DNA from: Elusimicrobiales bacterium
GTDB taxonomy: Bacteria; Elusimicrobiota; Elusimicrobia; Elusimicrobiales; UBA9959
Assembly (NCBI GenBank): GCA_028713125.1
Contig: JAQTOU010000002.1
Span: 268,583-332,582, forward strand
Length of the DNA stretch: 64,000 nt
Reading direction: 5' to 3'
Position numbers and translations under genes: made by a program. The notes under the pieces are model-generated. The model was not told the origin of the DNA. It did no database searches and worked only from the letters and a program-made list of their open reading frames with translations. This document shows, in pieces, positions 2,743-21,805 of the stretch. Every line of letters begins with the position of its first letter. Positions within the stretch are counted from its first letter, which is position 1.

Positions 2743-4239
2743 ATGAAAAAACTTTCCTTGATATCGCTGCTGGCCGCCCTTGCGGGCTGCGGAAATTATT
2801 TCTCGGTAAGGGTCCCTTACCAGGTCCCTGACATGCCGGGAGCCGCGGCCGCGGGGTCCGCTCTCTCGGCGCTTTATGTGACGGTAAAAACGGGACCCGC
2901 TCCGGAGGAGAACGCGCTGGGCGCCCTGGCGGCCGCCCTTGCTAACAAGTCCGGCCCTGATTTCAGGCCCGCGGAACTGGCCAGGCGCGCCGCCCGCGCC
3001 CTTACCCGCCCGGGCTCCAGTGTCTGCGCCTGGCGCGTTGACAAGTCCGGCGCCGCCGACGCTTTTATCCCGCTGATAAAGCCGGCCGGCCTCCTGGCCC
3101 TGACCGCAAACAGGCCCTCGGTCTCGTCGAAGAAAGAGGAGCGCGCGTCGGTGTACTACGATAAGAAAAAACAGAAGCAGACCGTGAAGAACAAGGTCTG
3201 GGTCTACTCGGCCTCGATGTACGCCGAGATAAAACTTTATTCCTGGCCCGGGGCGGAGCTGCTTGATTCCTGGTCCGATAATTTTTCATATTCCGAGGAC
3301 CGCCTGGACGATTCCAAGGACGCGGGCGACTGGTACGCCGACGCGGAGGGAAAACTTTTCGGCGCCGTCACCGCCAGGCTGGTGGCGCGCTACGCCGGCC
3401 GGCCCGTGGACCGCTTCAGGCCCGTGTTCAGGAAAAAAGGCGACAAGGAGTCCGAGGAGGCCGGCCGGCTGGCACAGCGCAACAGCTGGGAGAAGGCCGA
3501 GGAGATCTGGCTCAGGCGGGACGAGGCCGCGGGCGGCTGGCGGGATTCCCTGGGCCTGGCGGTAGCGGCCGAGCTGAAAAAGAATTACTCGGCGGCCGGG
3601 GCTTATTACCGCCGGGCGCAGGAGCGCTCCGCCGGAGACAAAGAGGCCGCGCCCGTCCGCTGGGGGGAGATCTACCGCGACCTGGAGCTCGTTTCCTCGA
3701 CGCGGGCGGCCGGCGGCTGCGACGGCGGCTGGTTCGGCGAAAGGACGGCGGTGTTGCCTTTCTCCGACGAGACCGCCAGCGTGGACGGCCCGCCGCTGGT
3801 GCGCCAACTGGTTTATGAGAGCCTGAAAGCGGGCGGCTATAACCTCGTGCCGCTGGAAGAGACCGACGAGATCCTGCGACGCCGCGGCTTCAGCGACGGC
3901 GGCCAGCTGGGCGCGGCCAAGCCGCAGGAGCTGGCGGCCTGGCTGGGCGCGCAGCGCCTGGTCTATTGCAATGTGACGGACTTCGGGGAGATCATGGCCG
4001 GCGTCTATAACCGGCGCATGGTAAAGGGCTCCGTAAGGGTCTGGGAGGCCGCCGGACCGGAAATTTCTTTTGAAGAAAGCGTCGTCAAGATCAAGACCCC
4101 GAAGTCTTTCGCCGGGGGGATGTTCAGCCAGCTCGCCAAGGGCCTGGTCGAGCGCATAAAGAACAAGCCGCTGGCTTTTGAAACGGGGCTTTTTTCACAG
4201 CAGGTTACCGAAAATCTGCCGAATTCCGTAAAACGCTAG
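2743..4239 (+). CDS. large lipoprotein with a GNA1162/DUF799-like C-terminal domain
   Basis: A 498-residue exported lipoprotein: MKKLSLISLLAALAGC is a short signal peptide with a good lipobox (LAGC, lipidated Cys about residue 16). The middle (about 60-250) is a mixed region ending in a charged helical stretch with TPR-like helices (NSWEKAEEIW, NYSAAGAYYRRAQE). From about residue 335, ERTAVLPFSDETASVDGP begins a domain resembling the GNA1162/DUF799 periplasmic lipoprotein fold, in which a short-named outer-membrane-linked protein helps other lipoproteins or assembles with them. That likeness is my reading and moderate. No SD is obvious before the ATG. It could be an accessory of the secretion and surface block downstream, but that is only suggested by position. 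Confidence 0.7.
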   Translation: MKKLSLISLLAALAGCGNYFSVRVPYQVPDMPGAAAAGSALSALYVTVKTGPAPEENALGALAAALANKSGPDFRPAELARRAARALTRPGSSVCAWRVDKSGAADAFIPLIKPAGLLALTANRPSVSSKKEERASVYYDKKKQKQTVKNKVWVYSASMYAEIKLYSWPGAELLDSWSDNFSYSEDRLDDSKDAGDWYADAEGKLFGAVTARLVARYAGRPVDRFRPVFRKKGDKESEEAGRLAQRNSWEKAEEIWLRRDEAAGGWRDSLGLAVAAELKKNYSAAGAYYRRAQERSAGDKEAAPVRWGEIYRDLELVSSTRAAGGCDGGWFGERTAVLPFSDETASVDGPPLVRQLVYESLKAGGYNLVPLEETDEILRRRGFSDGGQLGAAKPQELAAWLGAQRLVYCNVTDFGEIMAGVYNRRMVKGSVRVWEAAGPEISFEESVVKIKTPKSFAGGMFSQLAKGLVERIKNKPLAFETGLFSQQVTENLPNSVKR

Positions 4240-4319: not shown

Positions 4320-4385
4320 AGCATGTTAGCGGGGAGCGTAGCGGCCCGGCCGTTGCCTTATTGTTTTCCGCTTTATTATAAGAAG

Positions 4386-5732
4386 ATGATACGCAAACTT
4401 ATCGCAGCTTTATTCATCTCCGTGCCGGCCCTGTCTCCGGCGCCGGGTTATTGCGCCTGGGAAAATCTGCGCTATTCCGACGCCCCGCTGGCCGTCGTCT
4501 ACGCCTCCACCGGCGCCTATGAAGTTTCCTATACGGTGGGAGAGAACTGCGCCAGTCCCGGCGAAATGCTCTCCGCCCCGTCCGGAGTCTGGTCGGGCTA
4601 TCTTTCCCTCGTTCCCGCCAATATGGTGAACCAGGGTCTCGCCGGCTTCGTTTCCACCTCCTCCGTCGCCCTGGACGGATCGCTCTGGGGCACCCCGCCG
4701 GATGAAAGCGTCAAGCTCCTTTTCGGGTCGGAGCTCTCCACGGCGCTCTCCAACCCCGGCGTGAATGTTACCCGGATGTACGACAATACGGGCAGCGTGC
4801 TCAACTCCACCTATACCTGGCCGGTGACGTTCAGCTATTCGGGCCGGCAGGTGCTTATAATCCCCGACCCGCTTCATCCATGGCCCAAGGGCAGCGTCTT
4901 CTCCATTTCTTATTCTTCGTCGATCGTAGATGTGACCGGCTCGCCCCTTTCGGAAGCTTCCACCGTTTATTTCTCCGTGCTGATGGATTACCAGACCGAT
5001 AATACCGCCGCGGCTTTTTCCGACCGCCGGGTGAAAGTGTCTATTCCGGCCAACGCATATTCGCAGGATTTCTTCCTGACGCTCTCTACCGATTCCGCCG
5101 TACCGGAGGTAACCGCTGCCAACGCCAAGCTGCCGTCCATGCCCGGTTCCCCGGAATTCGTCAATACCCTGAAGGTGAGCCCGTACGATTCCTCCGGCAA
5201 CCCGGTGCAGCCCAATTCTTCCTGTCTTGTCACCCTGCCCTATCCTGATGAGGACGGCAACGGGATAATCGACGGCTCCGTCTCCAGGCTTAAGGCCGCG
5301 AACCTCGCGGTCTGGCACCTGGACGAAGGGCGGGGTCTCTGGGTCAAACAGACCGGGGCTTCGCTCGACGCCTCCGCCAGGCAGCTGACGCAGCCTGTCT
5401 CCCATTTTTCCAGCTATGCGCTGCTGGCCCTGCCCGATATGGACCTGGGCCCGGTCTACGCCTACCCTGTGCCTTTCAGGCCGAACGCCGGCAACCCGGC
5501 AAGGTACGGCAGCTGGAGCGACCTGATAACATTTACCAATCTGCCGGTGCAGGGAAAGATACGGATCTACACGATAACCGGGGAGCTGGTGCGCGAGATG
5601 CTCGTAACGCCTCCGTCCATGAAGTGGGACCTTAAAAATTCTTCCGGCCAGACGGTAGGCAGCGGCGTTTACCTGTGGGAGGTCACGGCGGGAAAGAACC
5701 GCAAGACCGGCAAGCTGGTGGTCATAAAATAG
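4386..5732 (+). CDS. secreted protein with T9SS type A-like C-terminal sorting domain
   Basis: A 448-residue secreted protein. I use the ATG at 4386 rather than 4323 because it starts a clean signal peptide (MIRKLIAALFISVPALS, cleavage near GYCA) and has AGAAG just upstream. The body is rich in Ser, Thr, Tyr and aromatic beta-strand sequence with Ig-like segments. The last 85 residues read YAYPVPFRPN, then GKIRIYTITGELVREM, WDLKNSSGQTVGSGVYLWEV and a Lys-rich end TGKLVVIK. That is the pattern of type A T9SS sorting domains (also called FlgD-Ig-like). The next gene encodes a PorV-like protein, the known shuttle partner of such domains. Cargo role unknown. Confidence 0.75.
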   Translation: MIRKLIAALFISVPALSPAPGYCAWENLRYSDAPLAVVYASTGAYEVSYTVGENCASPGEMLSAPSGVWSGYLSLVPANMVNQGLAGFVSTSSVALDGSLWGTPPDESVKLLFGSELSTALSNPGVNVTRMYDNTGSVLNSTYTWPVTFSYSGRQVLIIPDPLHPWPKGSVFSISYSSSIVDVTGSPLSEASTVYFSVLMDYQTDNTAAAFSDRRVKVSIPANAYSQDFFLTLSTDSAVPEVTAANAKLPSMPGSPEFVNTLKVSPYDSSGNPVQPNSSCLVTLPYPDEDGNGIIDGSVSRLKAANLAVWHLDEGRGLWVKQTGASLDASARQLTQPVSHFSSYALLALPDMDLGPVYAYPVPFRPNAGNPARYGSWSDLITFTNLPVQGKIRIYTITGELVREMLVTPPSMKWDLKNSSGQTVGSGVYLWEVTAGKNRKTGKLVVIK

Positions 5733-5747: not shown

Positions 5748-6902
5748 ATGAAGAACAGGATCATACATAAAATTTTAGCGGCCGCCTGCCTCGCGCAGCC
5801 GGCGCTCTTTCCCTCTTTATCTTCCGCCGCGGCCGGCAAGACTGGCGGGGAATTCCTCCGCATCGTGCAGAGCCCCCGGGCGGTGGCGATGGGCGAGTCC
5901 GGGGCCGGCGCCTATGGCGACCTGCTCGGGGCGCTTGCGCTTAACCCGGCCGCGCTGGCGCGCACCGGCTACAAAGAAGCCGCTTTCACTTACAACTCCT
6001 GGCTCGAAGGGATAACCTCCCAGCAGGCCGCTTACGCGCACCCGCTGCCCAACGGAAAAGGCGTCCTTGCCGGCTCTCTTTATATCCTGAGCGTTCCTTC
6101 CATAGACGGCTATAATAATGTCGGGGCTCCGGCCGGCAATATCGACGCAGGCGACATGGCTTTGGGGGTCAGCTACGCGGCGAGACTGGGCGGCCCCTGG
6201 GACGACAGGCGCTCCGGGCTCTTCGCCGGCGGCTCTCTTAAATACGCCAGGGAAAACCTGGGCCCGGTCTCGGCAGGCGCCGCGCTTATCGACGCCGGCG
6301 CCCTATGGATAAACAGGGTAAAGGGCGGGGTGCTGGGCCTCGGTCTCTCGGCGCAGTCGCTCGGCGGAGGCTTCAAATTCGATTCAGTTACGGACGCCGC
6401 CCCGGCTGTCTACCGGGCTGGGGTTTCCTATATAACCGTGATCTCCGGCGACCCTCTTACTTTTTCGCTGGACTGGAAAAAGCCCTGGGATACGGGCGCC
6501 TCTTTCTGCGCGGGGGCCGAATTCCAGGCATGGCGGACCCTGGCGCTGCGCGCGGGCTATATCTCCGGGGAGGACCTGGGCGGCGGCCTGAGGCTCGGCG
6601 GAGGGGTCGCCATAAAGATGATGCAGTTCGATTACGCTCTTTCCAGCTACGGCAAGTTCGGCGCTACCCACAGGTTCAGCCTGTCCTATAAATTCGACAA
6701 GCCGGTGGAGATCACCAAGTACGTGACCCGCGAGCAGGAGGAGGCCAGGCTGAAGACCGAGCGGGCTCGCGGCCTGATACGGGAAAGCCGGTATTACGAG
6801 GCCGTCCTGGAACTTAACGGGGCGCTTATCCTCGACCCCGGCAATAAAGAGGCGCTTGATCTTATGCGCAAGGCCCGGGGGCTGGTGGAGGTCTCTAAAT
6901 AA
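5748..6902 (+). CDS. PorV/PorQ-family outer-membrane protein with C-terminal TPR
   Basis: A 384-residue protein with a signal peptide (about 1-28) and the family opening GGEFLRIVQSPRAVAMGESG followed by LALNPAALA near residue 65, the signature of PorV/PorQ (UPF0164) beta-barrels. PorV binds sorting domains of T9SS substrates and carries them from SprA to the attachment complex. Alternating hydrophobic strands fill residues 70-320. An unusual addition is the tail from about 325 (VTREQEEARLKTERARGLIR...YYEAVLELNGALILDP), which reads as a TPR pair on the periplasmic side. The gene lies 15 nt after the CTD protein gene and its TAA overlaps the next ATG (TAATG), so the three are co-translated. Confidence 0.8.
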   Translation: MKNRIIHKILAAACLAQPALFPSLSSAAAGKTGGEFLRIVQSPRAVAMGESGAGAYGDLLGALALNPAALARTGYKEAAFTYNSWLEGITSQQAAYAHPLPNGKGVLAGSLYILSVPSIDGYNNVGAPAGNIDAGDMALGVSYAARLGGPWDDRRSGLFAGGSLKYARENLGPVSAGAALIDAGALWINRVKGGVLGLGLSAQSLGGGFKFDSVTDAAPAVYRAGVSYITVISGDPLTFSLDWKKPWDTGASFCAGAEFQAWRTLALRAGYISGEDLGGGLRLGGGVAIKMMQFDYALSSYGKFGATHRFSLSYKFDKPVEITKYVTREQEEARLKTERARGLIRESRYYEAVLELNGALILDPGNKEALDLMRKARGLVEVSK

Positions 6903-7753
6903 TGCCCCTGCTCCCGCTCGTGCTGCTGGGCGCGCTTCACCTGGCGGCCGCCCAGCCCGCGGGAAGCGGCCGGGAGGCCGGCGCGAAAGCGCCACAGGTT
7001 ATTTACGCGGCGGACGATACCAGGGCCGTTATACTGAAGCTCATGGACCGGGTGATCGCCGACCCTTCGGACGAGGCGGCGCGGAAGGAACTGCGCTTAG
7101 CCACGCTGCGGGCGGTGCAGAAGGAAACCCGGGCTTCCGACGCGGAACGGGCCTCGCTTATAGCCGGGGCGGGAGCGGACCGGGCTAAAATACTGGCGAT
7201 GCGCGCCGCTAAAAAAAGGCGGCTCGACGCTTGGAAAAGGGGTTTTGACAGGGCCTGCGCGCTCGCTTCGGGGGCCGATACCGTGAAAGAAGCCGTGGCC
7301 GCCTACGAGAGCCTGCTTGAAACTTTTCCGGTCTACTCCGACACCAGCGAATATATGCTTTCTTCCGGGATCAAGATCAAGAAGATCTTTTACAGTGTGA
7401 TAAAGAAGACGTACCCGTACCTGCTGGCCGGACGGGACACTATCGACGAGCGGACCCTGGCCGCGCTGCAGTTCTCCAGGGTCGCCGCGCTGCAGGAGTT
7501 CGGCGGGCATCCTGACACGACCGCCGCCGATAAAGAGCTGAAGAAGGCGGAGCGGTTCAGGCGGCTGGAGCGGGAGCTGGTCCTGAAGCATGAGAATATG
7601 AAGACGGCCATGGACCTCTACGAGATAAAGAACTATCCCGAGGCCATTAAATGTTTCGACAAGGCGCTGGATTTTGACAGGGACAATGAAGAAGCGCTGT
7701 TCTACCGGGCGCTGGCTATGAAAAAAGCGGGCTTGAAGGACGACGAGAGGTGA
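6902..7753 (+). CDS. periplasmic helical/TPR protein
   Basis: A 283-residue protein with an N-terminal signal peptide (MPLLPLVLLGALHLAAAQPA). The remainder is predicted mostly helical and charged, with a C-terminal TPR unit (MKTAMDLYEIKNYPEAIKCF, then a second helix DFDRDNEEALFYRALAMKKA). No catalytic motif is visible. Its ATG overlaps the PorV-like stop codon and it is followed at once by the giant fibre gene, so it is probably a periplasmic scaffold or assembly factor for the surface proteins encoded on either side. That role is inferred from position and TPR content only. Confidence 0.6.
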   Translation: MPLLPLVLLGALHLAAAQPAGSGREAGAKAPQVIYAADDTRAVILKLMDRVIADPSDEAARKELRLATLRAVQKETRASDAERASLIAGAGADRAKILAMRAAKKRRLDAWKRGFDRACALASGADTVKEAVAAYESLLETFPVYSDTSEYMLSSGIKIKKIFYSVIKKTYPYLLAGRDTIDERTLAALQFSRVAALQEFGGHPDTTAADKELKKAERFRRLERELVLKHENMKTAMDLYEIKNYPEAIKCFDKALDFDRDNEEALFYRALAMKKAGLKDDER

Positions 7754-7757
7754 GCTT

Positions 7758-10700
7758 GTGAAGATAAAACATGGAATTGCGGCCGCAGCCGCGCTTGCTT
7801 TCCTGCTTATAACAGGAGTTCAGACTTTCGCCGCTTCCCCCGGCCGCGTCAGCTACCAGGGCACGCTCAGGAAGAACGGGATACTTTTCAGCGGCACCGC
7901 CGTCATGGAGTTCCGCGTAACCAACGCCGACGGCTCCTCTATCTACTGGACTTCCGGCTCCACCGGCGTGGTGGTCTCGACCGGCCTGTTCCGCTACCCG
8001 CTCGGTACGCCCAATGAAGCGTCTTTCGACGCTATTTCCTGGAAAGAAATAACCCCTTACGTGCAGATGAGCCTGGACGGCGGCTGGCTGCCGAGGGAGC
8101 CCCTTTACACTTCGGTCTATTCTCTGCACGCGAAAACCTCGGAGTCCTCCACCGGGACTTTCACCATCAACGGCGGAGACCTGCGGCTCGTGGCCGCCTC
8201 CGGCGGCAAGGGCATCTACTTCCCCGACGGCACGTCCCAGTTCAGCGCCCCGGGCTGGGCGGTTACCGGCTCCTATACTTCTTTCGCCGGCGGGGCCGGA
8301 GTGGGGACCCTTACCCCGGCCACCAGGCTGGACGTAAAGGGCGCCGTAGCCGACCCTTACGTACAGTTCTGGCGCGACGAGAACGGGGTCATAAAGGCTA
8401 CCATGACCGCCGCGGGCGTGCTTTACGCCGACGGCTCGCAGCTGAGCAATCTTCCGGCCGGGGCCGACAATATGGGCAGCCATACCGCCACCCAGGCCCT
8501 GAACATGGCGGGCTGGCCGATAAACAACTCCGGCTCCATCATAGCCAACGGCCAGGTTACAGTTTACTCCAGCGCCACCGTGACTTCCTCTTCCGGGCTC
8601 GGCTCCGCGAAGCTCAAGCTCGCAAGCGGGGTAGAGGTATCGTCTTACTCCGCGGGCGGGGTGTTTATTTCTTCGAACGTGACCCTCGCGGCCGGGGGCA
8701 AATATTTCGGCAACGGCTCCATGCTTACCGGCGTGAACGACAGCCTGGGCAACCATATCGCCACCCAGACGCTGAACATGGCGGGCTTCCAGATACTGAA
8801 CGTTTCCACGGTAGTCGTGAACAGGTCTTTGTGGTTCAATAATAATGTCGAGATCTCCTCCTCCGCCGGCGTTTACAGCGGTGTGTATATTTCCACCAAT
8901 ATCAGCATCGCCGCCGGGGCCAAGTATTACGGCGACGGCTCGGGCCTGTCTGGTATAGTCGGAACCGATAATCTGGGCAACCACGTGATGACCCAGAACC
9001 TCGCTACCGGCGCGAATTGGATCTCCTCCGACGGTTCCCCCAACGGGATCAATATCGACGCTTTAGGAAATATCGGCGTTGGGCAGGCGGCCGGTTCCGC
9101 TTCCCTGGACCTGCGCGGTACAGGCGGAACCTATACGCAGATCTGGCGTAATAATGCCGGAGTAATAAAGGCTTCCATGACGGCTGCGGGCGCGTTCTAT
9201 GCCGACGGTTCCCAGCTGCGCAATCTGCCCGCCGGCGGAACCGCTACCCAGGCGCTGAACATGGCCGGCTATAACATAGTCAGCGTTTCCACTATTTCCC
9301 TGAGTTCCGTAACCAGCTCCGGAGTCGGGGTGGTGTTCAGCACCAATGTGCTTCTTATGAACGGGCGCCTTGGCGTTAACACGTCCCTGCCGCAGGAAAG
9401 CCTGGACGTGAACGGAAATATAATGAGTTCCAGCCTGTCCGGGCAGGGAAACCAGTGCGTTTACGCAGATAATTTGGGAAGGCTTTGGCCATCGGGTGTC
9501 GGGAATTGCGGCAGCGCTACAGGTAGTGATAATCTGGGGAACCGGATCATGCTCGGCAACCTTATAACCGGCAGCAACTGGATCTCTTTCGACGGGAGCA
9601 ATGGCGGTCTGTCGGTCAATATCAGCAGCAATGTCGGCATAGGCGTTCTCTCCGCGGCTACGCGGCTGGACGTGAAGGCGCGGAGCGGGGATACTTATGT
9701 CCAGATCTGGCGCAACTCCGCCGGTGTCGAGCAGGCTTCGATGTCGGCCACGGGCTTTATCTTTGCCGACGCCTCCAAGATGCGCAATTTGCCTACCGGT
9801 GGTGACAGCTTCGGAACGCATACCGCCACCCAGCCGGTAAACATGGCCGGCTTCCAGCTGCTGAACGTCTCTTCGGTAAATTTCAGCGCGAATGTCGAGA
9901 TCTCTTCCTCCACCGGTTTGAACCGCGGTATATACGTTTCCACCAATATCTACATAGTCGGCGTCGCATCCGCCACCAAGTATTACGGCGACGGCTCTTC
10001 CCTGACCGGGGTTATAAGCTCCCCGGACAATCTGGGCAACCATACGGCCACCCTGAACCTGACTATGTCCGGGAAGGACATCGTCAGCGTTTCCACGATT
10101 TCGCTCAGTTCCGTGACCAGCACAGGCATAGGTGTTGTCTTCAGCACTAATGTCCTGCTTATGAACGGGCGCCTGGGAGTTAATACGTCCCTGCCTCAGG
10201 AAAGCCTGGACGTTAACGGCAATTTCAGAAGCTCCAGTCTGTCCGGCTCGGGGAACCAGTGCGTTTACGCAGATAATACGGGAAAACTTATGAAGTCCGG
10301 AGTCGGGGATTGCGGCAGCGCCTCAGGCTCGGATAATCTGGGCAACCGGATCATGCTCGGCAATCTTATAACCGGAAGCAACTGGATCTCTTTCGACGGG
10401 AGCAATGGCGGTCTGTCGGTCAATGTAAGCAGCAATGTCGGCATAGGCGTTCCCTCCGCCGCGACGCGGCTGGACGTGCAGGCGCGGAGCGGGGATACTT
10501 ACGCGCAGATCTGGCGCAATTCGGGCGGTGTTATCCAGGCTTCGATGTCGGCCGCCGGGCTGATGTTCGCGGACGCGTCGCAGATGCGGAACCTGCCTTC
10601 CGGGGCGGATAATCTGGGCAACCATACGGCCACCACCAACCTGGGCATGGCCTCGTTCGATATTACGGGAGTGTCCACCATGACGGTCGGCTACCTGACC

Positions 10701-13700
10701 AGCTCCGGGCCGGGAGTCGTTTTCAGCACCAATTTGCTTCTGATGGACGGCAACCTGGGCGTGAACAACCGCGTGCCCCAGGAAAAACTGGACGTCACGG
10801 GGAAGATCCGCGCTTCAAGTCTCTCAGGTTCCGGCTTTAGATGCGTCCAGGCGAACGATTCCGGCGTGCTGGGGCTTTCAGCGGACGCCTGCGGCCTTGC
10901 CGGGGTGGGCGGGGACAATTTGGGCGATTATACTATGACGTTCAACCTGATGACCAACAACAATTGGCTTTCAGGCGACGGCGGGAACGAAGGCGTAAGG
11001 ATAGACGCCCTCGGCAATGTTTCTGTCGGCGGCCTTATGAGCGATGTCGCCGCCGCGCGGTTCGATATCGAAGGCGCCGCGGGCACTCCCATACAGGCCT
11101 GGCGCGACAATGGCGGCGTGGTGCGCGCCTCGATGAGCAGCGGCGGGGGCCTGACCGCGAGCAGCGCGACCGTCAACGGCCAGCTCACCGTTAATTCCAG
11201 CGCTACCGTGACCGCGGCCCTGGGCGTCGGCGCGGCCAAGCTGCGCCTTAAAGCCAACGTCGAGATCTCCTCCGAGACGTCCACCTCTCTGGGCGGCGGC
11301 GTGCGGATCTCTTCGAACGTATACATAGTGGGCTTCTCCTCGGCCGCGAAATATTATGGCGACGGCTCGTCGCTTACAGGTTTGACCGGGCTGAACGCTT
11401 CGAATATCAACTCAGGTACCCTGGCGGACGCGCGGCTTTCCGCTAATGTCCCTCTGCTCGATTCCGTCAATACTTTCTCAAGCAGCTTTACAGTAAGCAA
11501 TGCCGCCGGCGCGGCTCTTTCCAGGGTCAGTTTCAGCGGGGGGGCGGAGATCTCTTCCGCCGCGGCCGCGAACTACGGCGGCGTGCAGTTCTCCACCAAC
11601 GTCTATCTTCCCGCCGGCGCTAAATATTACGGCGACGGGTCGCAGCTGAGCGGCGTAAGCGGTTCAGACAACCTCGGAAATCATACCGCCACCGCCGCGC
11701 TGCAGATGGCCGGCAACCAGATACTGAACGTTTCCTCGGTCACCGTTTCCGGCGCGCTGGGCCTGGGCGCCGTCAGGATCGCGATGCTGCCCGGAGTGGA
11801 AATTTCCTCCGCCGCGGCCGCGAACTACGGCGGCGTGCAGTTCTCCACCAATGTCTACCTGCCGGCCGGGGCCAAGTATTACGGCGACGGATCGCAGCTG
11901 AGCGGCGTGAGCGGCTCCGATAATTTGGGCAACCATACCGCCACCGCCGTGCTGCAGATGGCGGGTTTCGAGATAAGCAATGCCGGGGCTATAACTTCCT
12001 CCAGCGTCACCGTTTCCGGCGCGCTGGGCCTGGGCGCGGTCAGGATCGCTATGCTGCCCGGCGTGGAGCTCTCTTCCGCCGCTGAAGCCAACTACGGCGG
12101 CGTGCAGTTCTCTACCAATGTCTACCTGCCCGCCGGCGCTAAATATTACGGCGACGGCTCCTCTCTTACCGGGACCGGCCAGAACGCCTCAAATATCTTC
12201 TCAGGCACGCTGGCGGACGCGCGGCTTTCCGCCAATGTCCCGCTGCTTAACGCCGCTAATATATTCACCTCTAAAGCGTCTTTTACCGCCCAGGACGGCT
12301 CTTTACCCGGGGTAGCCATCTCCTCCGGGTTGACCGTGCTTAACGGCGACGTCGGGATCGGGACCTTAAGTCCCCAGGCGAAGCTGGATGTTAACGGCGG
12401 GATCAGGATAGGCTCCACTGAAAATACTATCGCGGGTACGATAAGGTATAACGGCGCCTTTCAGGGCTTTAACGGCCTAAGTTGGGATACCTTGAGCGGT
12501 GGTTACACACTGGATGTTTCCACCATGTGGAGCAGCGCGGGCAACAATGTCTATCTCGCCTCGCTTTCTTCGAATGTGGCTATCGGTTCAACGGACGCCG
12601 GCACCGATAAACTGCGCGTCAGAGGCGCCACCAATGATTCGACAACTAACGCGGTCTTTATTGAAAATTCGGATGCGACGGGGATCTTCACCGCCCGCAA
12701 TGACGGGAAAGTAGGCCTTGGCCCGCAAGTTCCGGCGACCAGACTGGACGTACAGGCCGTCGGCGCGGATACTTATGTGCAGATCTGGCGCGACTCCGGC
12801 AGCGCTTATATAGCTTCAATGACGGCTACCGGCATCCTGTACGCCGACGGCTCAAAGCTGCGCAATTTGCCTCCAGGGAATACAGTGGATACTCTTTCAG
12901 CTACGCTTGGGGCCGGCAATGACGCCGGCGGACTTAACCTGGATAATGTCGGCGCTATAACGGCCGGCGGGCAGGTCACCACTTATTCAAGCGCCACCGT
13001 CGCCGGGGCGCTGGGTTTGGGAGCTGCCAGGCTCAGCCTCTCTCCTAATGTGGAGATCTCCTCAGAGACGACATCCGCGCTAGGCGCCGGCGTGAGGATC
13101 TCTTCCAATATTTATGTCGTAGGCTTCTCCTCGGCCGCTAAATATTACGGTAACGGCTCGGGGCTGACGAACCTCAACGGCGCAATGATGGGCCTGGGAA
13201 ACGTTACCAATGTGGCGCAGCTGCCGCTATCCTATCTTGATACCGATACCGCTCTGGCCGCGGATTCGGACCTGAAGGTCCCCTCCCAGAAGGCCATAAG
13301 ATATTATGTGGACAATGGCCTGAACAACTCGACCATTGTAAGGGAAGTCGATCTGACCGGCTCCGACTTCAGCGTGGCCGGCGGCGTGGTATCTTTGAAC
13401 TATACCGGCGCGCAGACCGCGGGTTCCGGCTTAAAAGGTTTCCTGTCAGGCGCCGATTGGGATAAATTCAACGCCAAGTTCGGTCCCAACAGCGACATTA
13501 ACCTTGCTAATACCTATAGCCTGGTCAATGTGTCCTCTATTACCGCCTATGGCGCTATAACTTCGTATTCCAGCGTGACCGTATTCGGCGCTTTGGATGT
13601 CGGCGCGAATAACTATTCTCAGATCTGGCGCGATTCCGGTAATGTGATCATGGCTTCGATGACCGCCGGCGGTATCCTTTATGCCGACGGCTCCCAGCTC

Positions 13701-14648
13701 AGGAACGTGGTGGGCGGCGGCGGTGGCGGCGGCAGCCTGTCAACGATACTTGCTTCCAATCCAAATGCGGGCAACGGGTCCATAGTTAATGTCAGCAGCA
13801 TGGCTATCGGCCAGGTCACCGCGGACGCGGCGCTGGACGTACATGCTTTGGGAGGCCAGAATATCGTCCAGACCTGGCGCGGTTTTGACGGCGTTTCTTT
13901 CGCGAAAATGACGCTGGAAACAGGGAAGGGGCAGTTCCACACCGACGATATCGTAGCGCGTACGGTGGAAGTCAGCTCGAACCTGGCGGTTGGAAATGCG
14001 TCCGCGGTCGACAATACGATGGTCGTCAGTATTTTATCGTCTTTTTCCGGATCAGCTATCGGTGATAATAACGTGGGCCTCAACTCCGCTGTTGGCGTAG
14101 ACCCTTCCGGTGATAAAACCGGGGCGGAGACATTGATAGGCGGTAATTTTGCCGCGGCGCTGGGAGCGCCCGGACTTCCGCACGGTGTTAGCTTTCCAAC
14201 GCTGGTGGGCGTGAGAGCCGGTACCCTCACCAATACGGGTGCGGCGAAAACGGTGTCTAACGGTTACGGCATATATGTGCAGAACGGGCACCTGGGCGGG
14301 ACGCTGAGCAATAGTTACGGAATAAACATAGCAAGGCCGAATATGGCCGCCACCGTCACCAATGTCTATGGTCTTTACATAGAAGATCATTCCTTGCTGT
14401 TCGGAAGCCCTCAAGGCAATAACATCTATTCGAAGGGCGCCAATACGTTCAACACATTTGAGGGGACGGTGGTGGTGGGCAAACTGCGTCTGCCTGCTAA
14501 AACCAAAGCTGAACTACTTGCGCTTACCCCTGTAGCAGAGGGCGAGGCATATTATTGCACTTCGGGTTGCCCGGCAAAAATGATCGTAGTCTCGACCGGG
14601 ACCGCGGCAGGGAATTTTGCCACAGCTATGGGAACTAATCAGTGGTAG
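7758..14648 (+). CDS. giant repetitive tail-fibre-like surface protein (2296 aa)
   Basis: A 2296-residue exported protein starting at GTG 7758, with GAGGTGA upstream that overlaps the previous stop. A signal peptide (about 1-26, cleavage near TFAAS) is followed by a head module (GRVSYQGTLRKNG... about 28-125) like that of fibre proteins in environmental bacteria. The rest is built from recurring units: NLGNHTATQ..NMAG, YYGDGS.LTG, VEISS...GV.ISTNVYI, ..ATRLDVKA..DTYVQIWR..GV..ASM and ADGSQLRNLP. These suggest a beta-rich, probably trimeric shaft. A run of seven Gly lies near residue 1990. I see no S74 peptidase/chaperone, no YadA anchor and no T9SS domain at the C-terminus, so the way it is anchored is unknown. 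It overlaps nothing but ends only 4 nt from the convergent methyltransferase stop. Confidence 0.75.
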   Translation: MKIKHGIAAAAALAFLLITGVQTFAASPGRVSYQGTLRKNGILFSGTAVMEFRVTNADGSSIYWTSGSTGVVVSTGLFRYPLGTPNEASFDAISWKEITPYVQMSLDGGWLPREPLYTSVYSLHAKTSESSTGTFTINGGDLRLVAASGGKGIYFPDGTSQFSAPGWAVTGSYTSFAGGAGVGTLTPATRLDVKGAVADPYVQFWRDENGVIKATMTAAGVLYADGSQLSNLPAGADNMGSHTATQALNMAGWPINNSGSIIANGQVTVYSSATVTSSSGLGSAKLKLASGVEVSSYSAGGVFISSNVTLAAGGKYFGNGSMLTGVNDSLGNHIATQTLNMAGFQILNVSTVVVNRSLWFNNNVEISSSAGVYSGVYISTNISIAAGAKYYGDGSGLSGIVGTDNLGNHVMTQNLATGANWISSDGSPNGINIDALGNIGVGQAAGSASLDLRGTGGTYTQIWRNNAGVIKASMTAAGAFYADGSQLRNLPAGGTATQALNMAGYNIVSVSTISLSSVTSSGVGVVFSTNVLLMNGRLGVNTSLPQESLDVNGNIMSSSLSGQGNQCVYADNLGRLWPSGVGNCGSATGSDNLGNRIMLGNLITGSNWISFDGSNGGLSVNISSNVGIGVLSAATRLDVKARSGDTYVQIWRNSAGVEQASMSATGFIFADASKMRNLPTGGDSFGTHTATQPVNMAGFQLLNVSSVNFSANVEISSSTGLNRGIYVSTNIYIVGVASATKYYGDGSSLTGVISSPDNLGNHTATLNLTMSGKDIVSVSTISLSSVTSTGIGVVFSTNVLLMNGRLGVNTSLPQESLDVNGNFRSSSLSGSGNQCVYADNTGKLMKSGVGDCGSASGSDNLGNRIMLGNLITGSNWISFDGSNGGLSVNVSSNVGIGVPSAATRLDVQARSGDTYAQIWRNSGGVIQASMSAAGLMFADASQMRNLPSGADNLGNHTATTNLGMASFDITGVSTMTVGYLTSSGPGVVFSTNLLLMDGNLGVNNRVPQEKLDVTGKIRASSLSGSGFRCVQANDSGVLGLSADACGLAGVGGDNLGDYTMTFNLMTNNNWLSGDGGNEGVRIDALGNVSVGGLMSDVAAARFDIEGAAGTPIQAWRDNGGVVRASMSSGGGLTASSATVNGQLTVNSSATVTAALGVGAAKLRLKANVEISSETSTSLGGGVRISSNVYIVGFSSAAKYYGDGSSLTGLTGLNASNINSGTLADARLSANVPLLDSVNTFSSSFTVSNAAGAALSRVSFSGGAEISSAAAANYGGVQFSTNVYLPAGAKYYGDGSQLSGVSGSDNLGNHTATAALQMAGNQILNVSSVTVSGALGLGAVRIAMLPGVEISSAAAANYGGVQFSTNVYLPAGAKYYGDGSQLSGVSGSDNLGNHTATAVLQMAGFEISNAGAITSSSVTVSGALGLGAVRIAMLPGVELSSAAEANYGGVQFSTNVYLPAGAKYYGDGSSLTGTGQNASNIFSGTLADARLSANVPLLNAANIFTSKASFTAQDGSLPGVAISSGLTVLNGDVGIGTLSPQAKLDVNGGIRIGSTENTIAGTIRYNGAFQGFNGLSWDTLSGGYTLDVSTMWSSAGNNVYLASLSSNVAIGSTDAGTDKLRVRGATNDSTTNAVFIENSDATGIFTARNDGKVGLGPQVPATRLDVQAVGADTYVQIWRDSGSAYIASMTATGILYADGSKLRNLPPGNTVDTLSATLGAGNDAGGLNLDNVGAITAGGQVTTYSSATVAGALGLGAARLSLSPNVEISSETTSALGAGVRISSNIYVVGFSSAAKYYGNGSGLTNLNGAMMGLGNVTNVAQLPLSYLDTDTALAADSDLKVPSQKAIRYYVDNGLNNSTIVREVDLTGSDFSVAGGVVSLNYTGAQTAGSGLKGFLSGADWDKFNAKFGPNSDINLANTYSLVNVSSITAYGAITSYSSVTVFGALDVGANNYSQIWRDSGNVIMASMTAGGILYADGSQLRNVVGGGGGGGSLSTILASNPNAGNGSIVNVSSMAIGQVTADAALDVHALGGQNIVQTWRGFDGVSFAKMTLETGKGQFHTDDIVARTVEVSSNLAVGNASAVDNTMVVSILSSFSGSAIGDNNVGLNSAVGVDPSGDKTGAETLIGGNFAAALGAPGLPHGVSFPTLVGVRAGTLTNTGAAKTVSNGYGIYVQNGHLGGTLSNSYGINIARPNMAATVTNVYGLYIEDHSLLFGSPQGNNIYSKGANTFNTFEGTVVVGKLRLPAKTKAELLALTPVAEGEAYYCTSGCPAKMIVVSTGTAAGNFATAMGTNQW
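9273..10660 (+). repeat. internal ~800-bp direct duplication in the fibre gene
   Basis: The block at 9273-9860 recurs about 804 bp downstream at 10077-10660. Segments such as LLMNGRLGVNTSLPQESLDV and NRIMLGNLITGSNWISFDGS are identical in protein. DNA differs mainly at third positions, so the duplication is old and its protein sequence is under constraint. A third, more diverged copy (LLMDGNLGVNN...) starts near 10680. Confidence 0.85.
11540..12175 (+). repeat. three tandem ~260-bp units in the fibre gene
   Basis: Units starting near 11546, 11798 and 12062 each encode EISSAA.ANYGGVQFSTNVYL, PAGAKYYGDGS and, in the first two, a GVSGSDNLGNHTATA segment. The DNA is nearly identical over more than 100 bp, closer than the older duplication upstream, so this expansion is younger and could vary in copy number. 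Confidence 0.85.
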
Positions 14649-14652
14649 CCGC

Positions 14653-15933
14653 CTACTCTCTTTCGAAGACCAGCAGGGTTTCCGCGTGGGGGGTATTGGG
14701 GTAGAAGTCGAAGCCGGCGGCGCGGATTATCTTGTACTTCTCCATGAAGAAAGCCGCGTCGCGGCCCTGCGTGATCGGGTTGCAGGATAAATAGATTATC
14801 CGCTGGGGCAATATTTCCATTATCTGCTTTATGACTTTCCCGTGCAGGCCCGCGCGGGGCGGGTCCAGCACCAAAATGTCCGTGCCGTCGAACAGCCCTT
14901 CTTCGGTCTTCTCCGAAAGCGAGCAGACCATCTCAAAATTATAGGCCTTGTTGGCGGAGGCGTTGAGCGCCGCGTACTTGGCCGAATTGGCCGAGGATTC
15001 CACGGCGTAAACCTTGTCCGCCAGGTCCCGGAGCGTCAGGCCTATCACGCCCACGCCCGAATACAGGTCCACGATCTTCCCGCACTTAAAGGAAGCGTCC
15101 CGGATCTCCCTCAGCGCTTCCGCGAAAAGGTCCATATTGTTCTGGAAGAAGCAGTCGAAGCCGTATGAGAACTTGGTCCCGAGCAGTTCTTCGGTGACGA
15201 AGTCATTGCCCCAGGAGTTCACTATCCCGTCCACCTGGCTCGTGGAACTTATCGGGTTCGAGTAAATTGCCAGGAAGCCGTCCAGGCCTTCTATATTCAT
15301 CTCGGGCAGGACGATGTCCTGGCGCTTCATGTACAGCGCGGCCACGCGCGAGCCCGGGTTCTTCGCTTCGCGGATGATCAGCGTCTTCAGGTCGGCCGTG
15401 GAAAGCTTGAGGTCGTTGAGTATTTTCAGGACCCTGAGAGCGCAGGCATTGGTTCCCGGGCTTATAAGGGCGCAGCCTTCCGGCAGGAGATATTTCTCGC
15501 GGTAGTTGCCGCGCTTGTGGAAGGCGAAAGAGAGCGCGCCCGGCTCGCCGGTGAAGCTGTATTCTATCTTGGTGCGGTAGCCGAAGGCTTCCTTGGCGGC
15601 GTAGAACTTGTCCAGGCGGATAGTTTCCTTGGTGGTCTGGTAAAGCAGGTCCTCGATAAGGCCTTTCTTGGTTTCGCACTGGAAAGCGTAGTCCATGACC
15701 TGCCAGGGAGAGCAGCTGAGGTAATGGTCCTCCCTGGGGGCCACGCGCTTCGGCGAGGGTTTTATGATCTCGATCAGCTCGGCTTCCGCGAAATTCTTTT
15801 TTTCGAAGGTGATGTTCACGCGTGCGGTCTCTTCCGGCAGCACGCCGTAGCAGAACACCACCTTGCCCTCGCTCCTGCCCAGGGCCTTGCCCTCGCCCAC
15901 TATTTTCTTGAATTCCAGCGTAATTTCGCGCAT
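14653..15933 (-). CDS. TrmA-family RNA uridine C5-methyltransferase (RlmD/RumA-like)
   Basis: Transfers a methyl group from SAM to C5 of a uridine in rRNA or tRNA. A TRAM-like beta domain (residues 1-55) is followed by a central domain and a Rossmann methyltransferase domain with DLYSGVGVIGL near 290 (SAM site), LDPPRAGLH near 355 and the catalytic YLSCNP with Cys384; the general base is in the C-terminal segment near HAETLL. The N-terminal region has CSPWQVMDY where 4Fe-4S members have a CGGC motif, so most cluster cysteines are missing. The target base cannot be told from sequence. AAGGA precedes the ATG with about 7-nt spacing. Its stop lies 4 nt from the convergent fibre gene, with no terminator between. 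Confidence 0.87.
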   Translation of the reverse strand: MREITLEFKKIVGEGKALGRSEGKVVFCYGVLPEETARVNITFEKKNFAEAELIEIIKPSPKRVAPREDHYLSCSPWQVMDYAFQCETKKGLIEDLLYQTTKETIRLDKFYAAKEAFGYRTKIEYSFTGEPGALSFAFHKRGNYREKYLLPEGCALISPGTNACALRVLKILNDLKLSTADLKTLIIREAKNPGSRVAALYMKRQDIVLPEMNIEGLDGFLAIYSNPISSTSQVDGIVNSWGNDFVTEELLGTKFSYGFDCFFQNNMDLFAEALREIRDASFKCGKIVDLYSGVGVIGLTLRDLADKVYAVESSANSAKYAALNASANKAYNFEMVCSLSEKTEEGLFDGTDILVLDPPRAGLHGKVIKQIMEILPQRIIYLSCNPITQGRDAAFFMEKYKIIRAAGFDFYPNTPHAETLLVFERE

Positions 15934-18262: not shown

Positions 18263-20245
18263 ATGGGGTTATACCGTCTTCTATTAAGCTCTATAAGCCT
18301 GCTGCTGCTGACGCTGCCGCCGGGCGTTCTTGCCTCCGGCCCGGAAGCTGAGCGCAGCGGCGCGTCCGCGCTGTTCGACGGGAATTCGCCGCTGCCGGCG
18401 CCCGAAGGGACGGCGGCGGGGAAAGAGCGCGACGCCAGCGCCGATTTTCTCAGGCAGATGAAGGAAGTCCTCTCCACGGGGGCCTGGGACGGGCCTTCCC
18501 CGAAAACGCGTCATTTTATCTTCAGGAATTCCGGCGAGGGCTGGACGGCGCAGGCGCAGAGCGTGGGGCTGGAGGGTTTCCTCTGGACCAAGAAAGAGCT
18601 TGAGGGAAAATACGGCGAGGCGGCCTTCTCCGGGCAGCTTAACGATTATTTCCTTTACCTGGACGGGCTGCTCAAGCCAGCCTCCTGGACGGGAGAATTG
18701 CGCGCCGCGCTTTCCGAGTTGAAAAATTCGCAGCTGCCCGACCGCGAGAAGAACGCCCGACTGAACGCCATCCTTGAAAATTACGTCTCCGGCCTGCAGG
18801 CTAATATGGAGAGATATGACGGCGCGGCCTGGGCGAAGAAAGCCCGCATCTACGAGCTTTTTCCGCGCGCCTATAACCTGGACGGCCGCCGTTCCGCCTC
18901 CGGTTTCAAGTCGCCGTCGGAGCCCTCTAAAACCCTTTTCTTCAGGGAATTCGGATCCTCTGATTTCGAAGTTATCAAGCGCATGGGGTTCGATACGGTG
19001 TGGCCCATGGGGATACTTCCGATAGGCGTGAGGGGCCAGACCGGGACCGGCGGCGGCTCGCCGTATTCTATCAGCGACCACGGAACCGTCAACCCGGACC
19101 TCGGCACCGAGAAGGATTTCAGCGATTTCGTGAAAAAGGCGCACCAGGCGGGCCTGAAAGTTATCGTGGATTTTGTCGTGAACCATACCTCGCTCGACTC
19201 CAGGCTGCTGGCGGAGAACCCGGACTACTTCGTCAGTTTCCGCTATGACGGGCCCTGCCCCAAAGACGGCTATTTCGAGAGTTACTGGAACGGAGGTAAA
19301 TATTGCGTGCACCACGGCGGCTTCGAGTACGGCAACGGGGTTTCCAGCTGGATAGATACCGCCCAGGTGAATTATTCCAATACGGCGCTGCGCGCCCGTA
19401 TGACGGACACCGTTAAAGGCTGGGTGACAAAGTTCGATGTGGACGGTTTCCGCGTCGACATGGCCTACCTGGCGCTGAACAACGTTTTCGCCCGCACCTG
19501 GCAGAAGAGCATGCCGCACGAAGAATTCTACCGCCAGCTCATCTGGACGGTAAAGGCGGCCAAGCCCTCCGCGGCCTTCATGGCCGAGGCTTACGCCTAC
19601 CAGGAGGATCTCGGCGCCTGCGGCTTCGATACAATTTACAGCAAGCAGGAGGACGCGAGGCCGGAGGGACAGACCGGCTGGTACAATTCCACCGAGGCCG
19701 GAAGCGCGGCCCAGATCCAGAGCGCGCTCAACAGGCAGGCTTTCCTCGCCTGGCAGACGGGCGGGGCGGGCTCCGTCATGTTCATCGGCAACCACGACGA
19801 ACCGGCCCCCGAGAAAATTTACGGCAAGCGCCTGCCCGCGGCTCTCGCTCTGACGCTGCTTTACCCGGGCTCCGTCATGATGTATTCCGGCGCGGAGATA
19901 GGTTACGACGCGGCCGTCCCCGCGGAGCATAAGCCGCTGCCTTTCAGCGTGCCCGCCGAGGTCGACTGGAACGGGGGGGACCCGGCCGTTAAAAACACCT
20001 ATAAGGAAGCCCTGGCCCTGGCGGCCCGCGTCCGCGCGGAACTTGGTGATTACGAGATCGAGCCGCTCTGGCCGGCCCCCGGGCAGGCCTGGGCCGGCTA
20101 TATACTTAAGTCCAAGGCCAAGCCCGGCATGCGGCGGGCCATTATAGGCAATATAACCTGGAACGGTACGGCGGCGGATGTTCCGCAGGCCGGGTTCAGC
20201 GGCCGCCTGGAGCCGGGAGAATACCGTCTTTTAGAGCTCCGCTGA
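18263..20245 (+). CDS. exported GH13 alpha-amylase-family enzyme
   Basis: A 660-residue glycoside hydrolase family 13 enzyme with a signal peptide (1-24, cleavage after VLAS). A helical N-terminal region of about 190 residues with no recognised fold precedes the (beta/alpha)8 domain. GH13 motifs are present: I VDFVVNHTS near 305, II GFRVDMAY with nucleophile Asp399, III FMAEAYAY with acid Glu442, and IV IGNHDEP with Asp512. The C-terminal beta domain ends GRLEPGEYRLLEL. It probably hydrolyses or rearranges alpha-glucans in the periplasm or outside the cell. The neighbouring gene is a second GH13 without signal peptide, suggesting use of glucan on both sides of the membrane. Exact bond specificity is not readable. 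Confidence 0.87.
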   Translation: MGLYRLLLSSISLLLLTLPPGVLASGPEAERSGASALFDGNSPLPAPEGTAAGKERDASADFLRQMKEVLSTGAWDGPSPKTRHFIFRNSGEGWTAQAQSVGLEGFLWTKKELEGKYGEAAFSGQLNDYFLYLDGLLKPASWTGELRAALSELKNSQLPDREKNARLNAILENYVSGLQANMERYDGAAWAKKARIYELFPRAYNLDGRRSASGFKSPSEPSKTLFFREFGSSDFEVIKRMGFDTVWPMGILPIGVRGQTGTGGGSPYSISDHGTVNPDLGTEKDFSDFVKKAHQAGLKVIVDFVVNHTSLDSRLLAENPDYFVSFRYDGPCPKDGYFESYWNGGKYCVHHGGFEYGNGVSSWIDTAQVNYSNTALRARMTDTVKGWVTKFDVDGFRVDMAYLALNNVFARTWQKSMPHEEFYRQLIWTVKAAKPSAAFMAEAYAYQEDLGACGFDTIYSKQEDARPEGQTGWYNSTEAGSAAQIQSALNRQAFLAWQTGGAGSVMFIGNHDEPAPEKIYGKRLPAALALTLLYPGSVMMYSGAEIGYDAAVPAEHKPLPFSVPAEVDWNGGDPAVKNTYKEALALAARVRAELGDYEIEPLWPAPGQAWAGYILKSKAKPGMRRAIIGNITWNGTAADVPQAGFSGRLEPGEYRLLELR

Positions 20246-20308: not shown

Positions 20309-21805
20309 ATGCTGCGTTCAAACCCGCATTTGATAGAGATCAATACCAGGCTGTGGCTCAAGCAGCTGCGGGTCAAGTATTCCCTGCCCGAGATGAATCT
20401 TTCCGCGGTGCCCGACGATGAATGGCAGGAGCTTCGCCACCTCGGTTTCGACATAATCTGGCTGGTCGGCGTGTGGGAGCCCAGCCCCGAATCCGAGCGC
20501 ATAGCGCGCGAGGACAAGGCCCTGCTGGAGGACCTGAAAAATATCCCGCCCGGCTTCGGGCCTGAGGCCGTCGGGCCCTCTCCATATTCCGTCCACTGGT
20601 ACCGCCTTAACGAAGACCTCGGCTTCGAGTGGGAGCTGAAAGCCCTCAAGGAGAAGCTTAACTCCATGGGCATGAAGCTGATGGTCGACCTGGTCTCCAA
20701 CCATACCGCGAAGGACAACCCCTATATAAAAGAGTGCCCGGACTGTTTCATAAACGGTACGGAAGATGATTTCAAAGCGCACCCGGACTGGTTCTTCGAA
20801 ATGGCCGACGGGGAGAAAAAGCGCTATATAGCCTATGGGCGCGATCCCAATTTCCCTCCCTGGACGGACAGCGCCCAGCTCAACTATTTCAACCCGGCGA
20901 CCCGGGAACGGATGCTTTCCGTGCTCCTGCGGATCGCCGACATGGCCGACGGCGTGCGCTGCGACATGGTGATGCTGACGCTTAACGAGATCCACGATAC
21001 TACGTGGGGCCCTCTTCTCAGCCGCGGCGGCTACAAGCGCCCCCAGGACGAGTTCTGGGAGAGCGCTATCAAGGCGGTGACCGAAAAACACCCCGGTTTC
21101 ATCTTCCTGGCCGAAGTTTATTGGGGACTCGAGTGGCGCGTGCAGCAGATAGGCTTCGATTATACCTATGATAAGGGCACCTATGACCGTCTCCGCTTCC
21201 AGGGAGCGCAGGAGCTGCGCGGCCACCTGCGGGCCGAGAAGCTTTACCAGAAGCGCTCAGCGCGGTTCATAGACAACCACGACGAGCAGCCCTCGATCAG
21301 CGTTTTCGGCAGGCAGAAATCCCTGGCCGCCGCTGTCGTGGTCGCCACTATAAAGGGCCTGCGGTTCTACAATGACAACCAGGTGGACGGCATAAAGATG
21401 CGCATCCCGCTGCAGCTCAATGAACTTTATGAGCGGACTCCCGACCAGGAAGTGAAGAAGTTTTACGCCAAGCTGCTGAAGATCACCGACCACCCCGCTT
21501 TCCACGGGGGGGAGTGGGCGCTGATCGACGTGCGCCCCTGCGACCAGGAAAACACCACCAACGCCAATATGCTGGCCTGGTCCTGGGCCCAGCGCCGGAC
21601 CCTCAAGGTCATAGTGGTGAATTATTCAGCCGAGGTATCCTGCGGCGTGGTGAACGTCAATATCAAGAGCGAGGGCGAGACCACCGCCATCTTCGAGGAG
21701 CTCTCCGACCGCTTCTTCTCCTTTAAATCCTCCGAGCTGGCCGGCGGCCTCCGCCTCCAGCAGATGCCCCCCTACTCCGCCTACATCTTCGACGTAGAAT
21801 TCTAA
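20309..21805 (+). CDS. cytosolic GH13 alpha-amylase-family enzyme
   Basis: A 498-residue protein without a signal peptide, starting at an ATG with strong SD (GGGAGGG). GH13 motifs: MVDLVSNHTA near 125, GVRCDMVML with Asp219, FLAEVYW with Glu269, and IDNHDE with Asp325. The N-terminus (NPHLIEINTRLWLKQLRVKY) matches cytosolic GH13 enzymes that often act on glycogen-like or maltooligosaccharide substrates and sit next to glucan-metabolic genes. The C-terminal beta domain is short and ends AYIFDVEF. It may work with the exported enzyme upstream: import of oligosaccharides then internal breakdown. Hydrolase and transferase activities cannot be separated by eye. Confidence 0.85.
   Translation: MLRSNPHLIEINTRLWLKQLRVKYSLPEMNLSAVPDDEWQELRHLGFDIIWLVGVWEPSPESERIAREDKALLEDLKNIPPGFGPEAVGPSPYSVHWYRLNEDLGFEWELKALKEKLNSMGMKLMVDLVSNHTAKDNPYIKECPDCFINGTEDDFKAHPDWFFEMADGEKKRYIAYGRDPNFPPWTDSAQLNYFNPATRERMLSVLLRIADMADGVRCDMVMLTLNEIHDTTWGPLLSRGGYKRPQDEFWESAIKAVTEKHPGFIFLAEVYWGLEWRVQQIGFDYTYDKGTYDRLRFQGAQELRGHLRAEKLYQKRSARFIDNHDEQPSISVFGRQKSLAAAVVVATIKGLRFYNDNQVDGIKMRIPLQLNELYERTPDQEVKKFYAKLLKITDHPAFHGGEWALIDVRPCDQENTTNANMLAWSWAQRRTLKVIVVNYSAEVSCGVVNVNIKSEGETTAIFEELSDRFFSFKSSELAGGLRLQQMPPYSAYIFDVEF

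Follow-up and report, generated by a model that had tools for sequence, protein, structure and literature searches.

A 2296-residue phage-tail-fibre-like protein of an Elusimicrobiales bacterium, encoded beside PorV-family and T9SS-type genes, with a probable constant N-terminal base and an exchangeable C-terminal tip

Introduction

In the excerpts of the literature consulted here, the T9SS is described as a system of the Bacteroidetes or of the Fibrobacteres-Bacteroidetes-Chlorobi group (PMC4793230, PMC11205867). According to an excerpt of PMC10994853, in Bacteroidota it is the CTD that targets a substrate to this system, and substrates of type A exit SprA bound to PorV. Those of type B remain attached to a carrier of their own, SprB with SprF and PG1035 with PorP (PMC9143113, also as an excerpt). 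The open-licence literature searched, much of it available in part, yielded no description of a T9SS, of PorV or of fibres such as the one reported here in Elusimicrobiota.

In this study, we analysed a 64,000-nt stretch of DNA from an Elusimicrobiales bacterium (hereafter, the window) that carries a gene for a very long fibre protein next to genes of secretion type. The parts involved, namely phage-type shaft and tips, PorV, SprA and CTD, are of known kinds.

Results

The fibre gene is one uninterrupted ORF with a GTG start and the sequence GAGGTGA immediately 5′ of it (Table 1), in a genome of 3.48 Mb on 39 contigs. The initial annotation had proposed a long fibre with a shaft of mixed repeat types and without an S74 chaperone, a YadA anchor or a sorting domain, and this description holds. 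The single open frame has a signal-peptide-like start, three motif classes were counted in the shaft by regular expression (12 DGS-type, 4 G(I/V)G...TRLDV and 8 DNLG(N/D) motifs), and the protein has no Pfam or NCBIfam family over cut-off and no PDB sequence match at E<=1. The Pfam search gave no Peptidase_S74 domain, Pfam and NCBIfam gave no C-terminal YadA anchor at E<=1, and the models for T9SS type A/B CTDs (TIGR04183, PF18962 and CHU_C) gave no match at E<=1. A C-terminal anchor of a known type, which had been named as the finding that would speak against the description, was rejected, as no profile matched. PHROGs returned weak matches to repeat stretches from families of unknown function (best E 1.8e-4). 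The shaft repeats are a protein-level feature, since Tandem Repeats Finder gives no DNA-level array in the gene. The shaft sequence diverges among relatives and both protein ends stay similar. The AlphaFold2 model of the last 225 residues is poor (mean pLDDT 38.3), and for this model and that of the N-terminal domain (N-domain) no fold match at E<=0.001 and no credible one was found in the PDB.

On the same strand, the order of genes is GNA1162-like lipoprotein, T9SS-CTD protein, PorV-family protein, TPR protein and fibre, with the spacing that follows from the coordinates in Table 1. The fibre is the last gene of this predicted operon because the next gene lies on the other strand. The PorV-like and TPR neighbours noted earlier are confirmed by their profile scores (Table 1) and, for the PorV-family protein, by a phmmer match to Flavobacterium johnsoniae PorV (6h3i_F, E 6.6e-4); a possible TPR tail of this protein gave no Pfam match. 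We presume that the PorV/PorQ-family protein is the carrier or anchor of the fibre and that the TPR protein is a periplasmic partner. Homologues of the GNA1162-like gene occupy the same place in L064 and L065 (58-59% identity), and the CTD gene has orthologues, and the TPR gene homologues, in the same operon of relatives. Scans for promoters and terminators gave about as many hits as in shuffles or slightly more. Elsewhere in the window, two adjacent alpha-amylase-family genes lie at 18263-20245 and 20309-21805 (+).

Table 1. Features of the fibre locus, with positions in the 64,000-nt window
Feature	Position	Strand	Basis
GNA1162-like lipoprotein gene, head of the cassette	2743..4239	+	Pfam PF05643, 28.4 bits (cut-off 25.9)
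Secreted 469-aa protein with T9SS type A sorting domain (about 5523-5723)	4323..5732	+	TIGR04183, 26.9 bits (cut-off 23)
PorV/PorQ-family outer-membrane protein	5748..6902	+	NF033709, 116.3 bits (cut-off 90)
TPR protein	6902..7753	+	TPR_11, 29.7 bits (cut-off 26.8)
Fibre protein, 2296 aa	7758..14648	+	Single ORF
Signal peptide, residues 1-25	7758..7832	+	Judged by eye
N-terminal base domain, residues 26-139	7833..8174	+	Profile A2; AlphaFold2 model
Mixed-repeat shaft, ~1,900 residues	8175..13970	+	Motif positions; divergence between relatives whose ends stay alike
Pre-tip region, residues 2072-2242, common to four C-module relatives	13971..14483	+	Alignment A4 (5 sequences)
C-terminal tip module, 54 aa	14484..14645	+	Alignment A1 (15 sequences)
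tRNA-U5-methyltransferase-like gene, next after the fibre	14653-15933	other strand	
SprA/Sov-like T9SS outer-membrane translocon, 1796 aa	23009..28399	-	TIGR04189; homologue profile vs PDB

Of the two ends of the fibre, the N-domain is conserved more widely. With profile A2, this region of ~114 residues was found in 164 of the 340 Elusimicrobiota genomes and in 69 of 100 genera, and nine copies occur in the fibre's own genome in ORFs of very different lengths. AlphaFold2 predicts a beta-rich domain with moderate confidence (mean pLDDT 65.8), whose best PDB matches have an rmsd above 6 A and a TM score below 0.46. At the sequence level, the best matches are at E 0.38 in the PDB and E 0.039 in Pfam, and one plasmid record was returned at E 10. 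The phage-fibre-like head suggested at the outset was not borne out at this end: in a pattern-limited search of viral contigs, none of 30 pattern matches was a relative of the N-domain. The phage-like parts of the fibre are the style of its shaft and, weakly, its C-terminal tip.

Relatives with the same base carry different C-terminal ends. L206 and L207 have N-domains 76 and 78% identical to that of the fibre and homologous CTD, PorV and TPR genes, and in place of the C-terminal module they have an FGE-sulfatase-like domain (22.3 bits, just under the cut-off of 23.3, and 28.7 bits, respectively); L220 also has an FGE-sulfatase match (30.0 bits). Among other N-domain proteins, S74 is the C-terminal domain of L222 (62.4 bits), which has PorV adjoining; a phage Collar domain is present in L219 (75.9 bits) and a Gp10_C domain in L231 (30.3 bits), and L215 matches C1q under cut-off. 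Domains of the S74, collar and C1q types are known to trimerise. L210, L225 and four paralogues from the fibre's own genome gave no family. Of the eight other N-domain proteins in that genome, the C-end could be read in seven, and the remaining one is truncated by the end of its contig; the CxxC module is absent from all seven, L202 having a variant without it. Two paralogous fibres of the genome, L009 (408-10160, 3250 aa) and L010 (7542-11168, 1208 aa), have other C-ends and no Pfam domain. This pattern suggests that the C-terminus is probably a distal, exchangeable tip and the N-terminus the proximal, constant base and anchor end. Because L206 and L207 combine N-domains so close to that of the fibre with another C-terminal domain, it is the N-terminus that should be examined for anchoring.

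The C-terminus had been described as having no visible anchor. This stands in so far as no recognised anchor is present, but the end is not featureless, as its last 54 residues form a conserved module (C-module). With the last 70 residues as query, 25 of the family's 59 genomes matched at E<=0.1, and in alignment A1 (15 copies) ten columns are invariant, including two cysteines and STGT. The cysteine pair is CxxC in relatives and CxxxC in this fibre. The C-module profile matched 34 of the 340 Elusimicrobiota genomes, 22 of them at E<=1e-14, and the module also occurs in nine metagenome-assembled genomes titled Elusimicrobia, Elusimicrobiales or Elusimicrobium. Weaker matches without the CxxC read ...LTPADAGDLYYNTTTNAVCVSTGT.... 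Across 29 rows, 0 to 17 residues remain between the match and the end of the ORF. In the fibre's own genome the profile matched a single protein among the 19 of 26 candidates that were scored. Whether homologues share the C-terminus, a check proposed in the initial annotation, thus has a divided answer: it is common to a subset and exchanged in others. A role of the C-module as a universal secretion signal was rejected, as the module is exchanged in the orthologues L206 and L207. Searches of other collections with the module gave four phage records (best E 3), nine chance matches in the PDB (best E 0.19) and eight PHROGs families (best E 0.034), each hit by a single one of the 15 copies.

A phage tip that the module resembles is the C-terminal end of Prochlorococcus phage P-SSM2 gp034, MLPPKVTTTERSNLAGLAAGAIIYNTTTNKLQVYNGSSWQNLH, which matches 72 phage records; in 10 phage loci examined, no more than 22 residues separate it from the end of the ORF, with one exception (L160). 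In hhalign comparisons, the C-module aligned with Elusimicrobiota variants lacking the CxxC at a probability of 98.7, the eight variant tips having been chosen beforehand for matching the C-module profile. These variants aligned with the phage tips at 61.9. Compared directly with the phage tips, the C-module reached a probability of 0.13 and a score under that of the best shuffle; taken jointly with the variants it reached 16.8, with a score of 20.4 against a maximum of 10.8 in 50 column shuffles. A distant resemblance of the tip to phage fibre tips is therefore only suggestive. In the comparison with T4-like cyanophage tail fibres, the shaft motif scored 4.9 bits (maximum of 4.4 in 200 shuffles), and 401 shaft residues gave no tblastn match to phages at E<=0.001. 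On one IMG/VR viral contig (L120, about 7533-8135), a 200-aa protein ends in a partial C-module.

The genes next to the fibre had been put forward as its possible route of export, and they appear to be the best candidates, since the association recurs in many genera. In the fibre's own genome, a PorV-family or CTD match lies within 6 kb of all nine N-domain genes (P 3.8e-9, at a chance of 0.116 per gene), within 3 kb of eight (chance 0.065) and within 1.5 kb of seven (chance 0.037). In other genera, we compared 29 N-domain regions of 4.2-13 kb, hand-picked from the N-domain matches listed, one per genus and with most places near contig ends passed over, with 20 control regions of 12.3 kb (12 from other genomes, 8 from the fibre's own). 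PorV and/or CTD genes were present in 20 of the 29 (PorV in 16, CTD in 18); the controls had a CTD in one region and PorV in none. The nine regions without either are L226-L231, whose N-domain proteins are short (272-315 aa), L232 (444 aa), and L211 and L212, which are cut by a contig end just upstream. The usual orders are CTD-PorV-fibre, CTD-PorV-TPR-fibre and CTD-fibre without PorV; in L205, L208, L209, L213 and L214 the CTD gene adjoins the fibre and PorV is absent. Many of the CTD partners are short (173-191 aa); in an alignment of 12, the N-terminal region is conserved and the tail resembles type A. Short secreted type A-like CTD proteins of fibre cassettes were seen in L199, L203-L205, L208, L209, L213, L214, L223-L225 and L234.

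Divergence of PorV and of the N-domain is correlated, both within the fibre's own genome (7 pairs, r 0.73, 195 of 5000 permutations as high) and over all 26 pairs (r 0.77, 0 of 5000 permutations), a value from which species relatedness is not removed. This comparison was made without L204, whose N-domain was not found by local search, and L205, which has no PorV. The genome has 28 PorV-family loci (32 PorV rows merged), 19 of them over cut-off. A PorV match lies within 1 kb of 18 of its 23 CTD matches, as if each cargo had its own carrier; for the 15 CTD matches over cut-off the number is 11. The eight weak CTD matches are not specific, because TIGR04183 gives matches below cut-off in 13 of 14 control genomes. 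Open frames of 14446 aa (L056, G000:C35 about 268907-269161) and 6824 aa (L047, G000:C15 about 674507-674740) were observed at CTD matches.

A SprA-like gene lies 8.4 kb from the fibre gene. It matches TIGR04189 with 119.7 bits (E 7e-35) in three collinear stretches, under the 200-bit cut-off. Queried alone it gave no PDB match, nor did Pfam return a SprA family; with a profile built from ten Elusimicrobiota homologues, the sole PDB matches were the F. johnsoniae SprA entries 6h3i and 6h3j (E about 1e-37). SprA-like matches, none over cut-off, were found in 291 of the 340 Elusimicrobiota genomes and in 0 of 14 control genomes. For the best 19 N-domain matches (E<=2.4e-46), SprA is on the same contig in 13, with 15-21 kb between the matches, and on different contigs of draft genomes in the remaining six. 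SprA matches are absent from at least 9 of the 164 genomes with the N-domain, including G254, whose fibre has PorV and CTD neighbours. Co-occurrence of SprA and the N-domain by itself says little, because many genomes with SprA are without the N-domain. Judged by homology, a predicted SprA/Sov translocon and a PorV carrier are both present in the fibre's genome. In that genome, the GldM profile, whose control is weak, gave no match at E<=1, and Peptidase_C25 (the PorU sortase, PF01364), which was silent in all 14 controls, gave none at E<=0.1.

Discussion

We read the fibre as the shaft subunit of a surface appendage that resembles a phage tail fibre and is probably an adhesin. Its export would follow a SprA/PorV (T9SS-like) route, its N-terminal base would hold it in place, and we give this reading a probability of roughly 0.57. 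What was computed directly is a constant base domain, a variable shaft, an exchanged tip, recurring CTD/PorV neighbours and a SprA homologue. The protein would enter the periplasm by its predicted signal peptide and would then pass the SprA-like translocon of the outer membrane together with one or two products of its own operon, the PorV-family carrier and perhaps the CTD protein. We infer this route because the gene association recurs and because of the homology of the components. On the surface, the N-terminal base domain may keep the fibre in place by binding the PorV-family barrel or the CTD partner. The shaft would be a beta-structured fibre, probably a trimer because relatives carry phage-type tips (S74, collar), and the small exchangeable tip may make contact or close the trimer. 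Since the fibre is without a CTD, either the CTD partner would bring it or the N-domain would bind the carrier itself. The latter leads to a bolder proposal, which we consider less likely than not, that the N-domain is a new N-terminal class of carrier-binding and anchoring domain. Elusimicrobiota would then run a T9SS-like pathway in which every cargo cassette has a PorV-type carrier to itself, and would mount phage-tail-fibre-like appendages with exchangeable tips on dedicated PorV barrels. The polarity would be opposite to that of the known C-terminal CTD substrates.

What argues against SprA/PorV export is that the fibre has no recognisable CTD, that the SprA-like gene scores under its model's cut-off and that no motor or sortase was found, in searches whose controls were weak or silent. 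The fibre might leave the cell by another route, with the PorV and CTD genes being co-regulated neighbours that carry the CTD protein itself. A CTD protein is a sufficient T9SS substrate on its own, stand-alone N-domain proteins exist, and some fibres are without PorV beside them. We nevertheless regard such a route as unlikely, given that the PorV/CTD association holds at 9 of 9 places in the own genome and in 20 of 29 regions from 29 genera against 1 of 20 controls, and that PorV and the N-domain diverge in a correlated way. The position of the C-module strictly at the C-terminus and its ten invariant columns would also fit a new sorting or anchoring signal, as T9SS signals are C-terminal, so that the fibre would be a C-terminally targeted substrate. 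This seems quite improbable when orthologues in the same operon end in an FGE-sulfatase-like domain, when one protein of the own genome carries the module (19 of 26 candidates scored) and the seven readable C-ends of N-domain paralogues are without it, and when a similar motif ends phage tail fibres.

A further reading is that the protein does not belong to the cell surface and is the tail fibre of a resident or domesticated prophage. Its shaft motifs and tip are of phage style, P-SSM2 gp034 ends in a similar tip and one viral contig encodes a 200-aa protein whose end is a partial C-module. Against this stand the signal peptide (judged by eye), the viral contigs in which no N-domain relative was found by the pattern-limited search, and the annotated neighbours, which are not phage genes and have similar counterparts in many genera; we consider a prophage origin of this kind very improbable.

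The preferred reading of SprA/PorV export and an N-terminal base offers a concrete answer to the question of the route by which the fibre may reach the surface and of what may keep it there. A T9SS-like pathway outside the groups named above can be put to the test in Elusimicrobiota, where 291 of 340 genomes have a SprA homologue and one genome has 28 PorV-family loci. If the fibre really is a T9SS-like cargo, its export without a CTD of its own and its N-terminal anchoring would be a new mode of protein display, and bacteria would have, in phage-type tips swapped on a constant base of their own, an equivalent of the host-range modules of phages. As far as the open-licence literature searched, partly as excerpts, extends, the combination of an N-terminally based, tip-exchanging fibre with a PorV/CTD cassette of Elusimicrobiota is not described.

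Among known systems, P-SSM2 gp034, a T4-like cyanophage tail fibre, resembles the fibre in having VGIGTTVPTEALDV and YYGDGKELLNLP in the shaft and, suggestively, in its C-terminal TTTER...GAIIYNTTTN tip. The fibre differs in that a signal peptide or a base domain of its kind was not seen in T4-like cyanophage tail fibres, the similarity is weak and the CxxC tip has no direct match to the phage tips. Bacterial fibres with an S74 chaperone are linked to it through L222, which has the same N-domain and a PorV neighbour and ends in S74, a domain that the fibre itself does not have. With the Flavobacterium T9SS, as presented in the excerpt of PMC10994853, the genome has in common SprA and PorV homologues and type A CTD proteins. 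It differs in its phylum, in having 28 PorV-family loci, with one within 1 kb of most CTD genes, and in that no GldM or PorU was found, with controls that were weak or silent. The likeness to type B substrates with PorP-like carriers, in the excerpt of PMC9143113, is that of a large surface protein kept by its own outer-membrane carrier, a binding that in our case is proposed by inference. Here, the barrel belongs to the PorV/PorQ family, the fibre is without a CTD and the conserved end is the N-terminal one.
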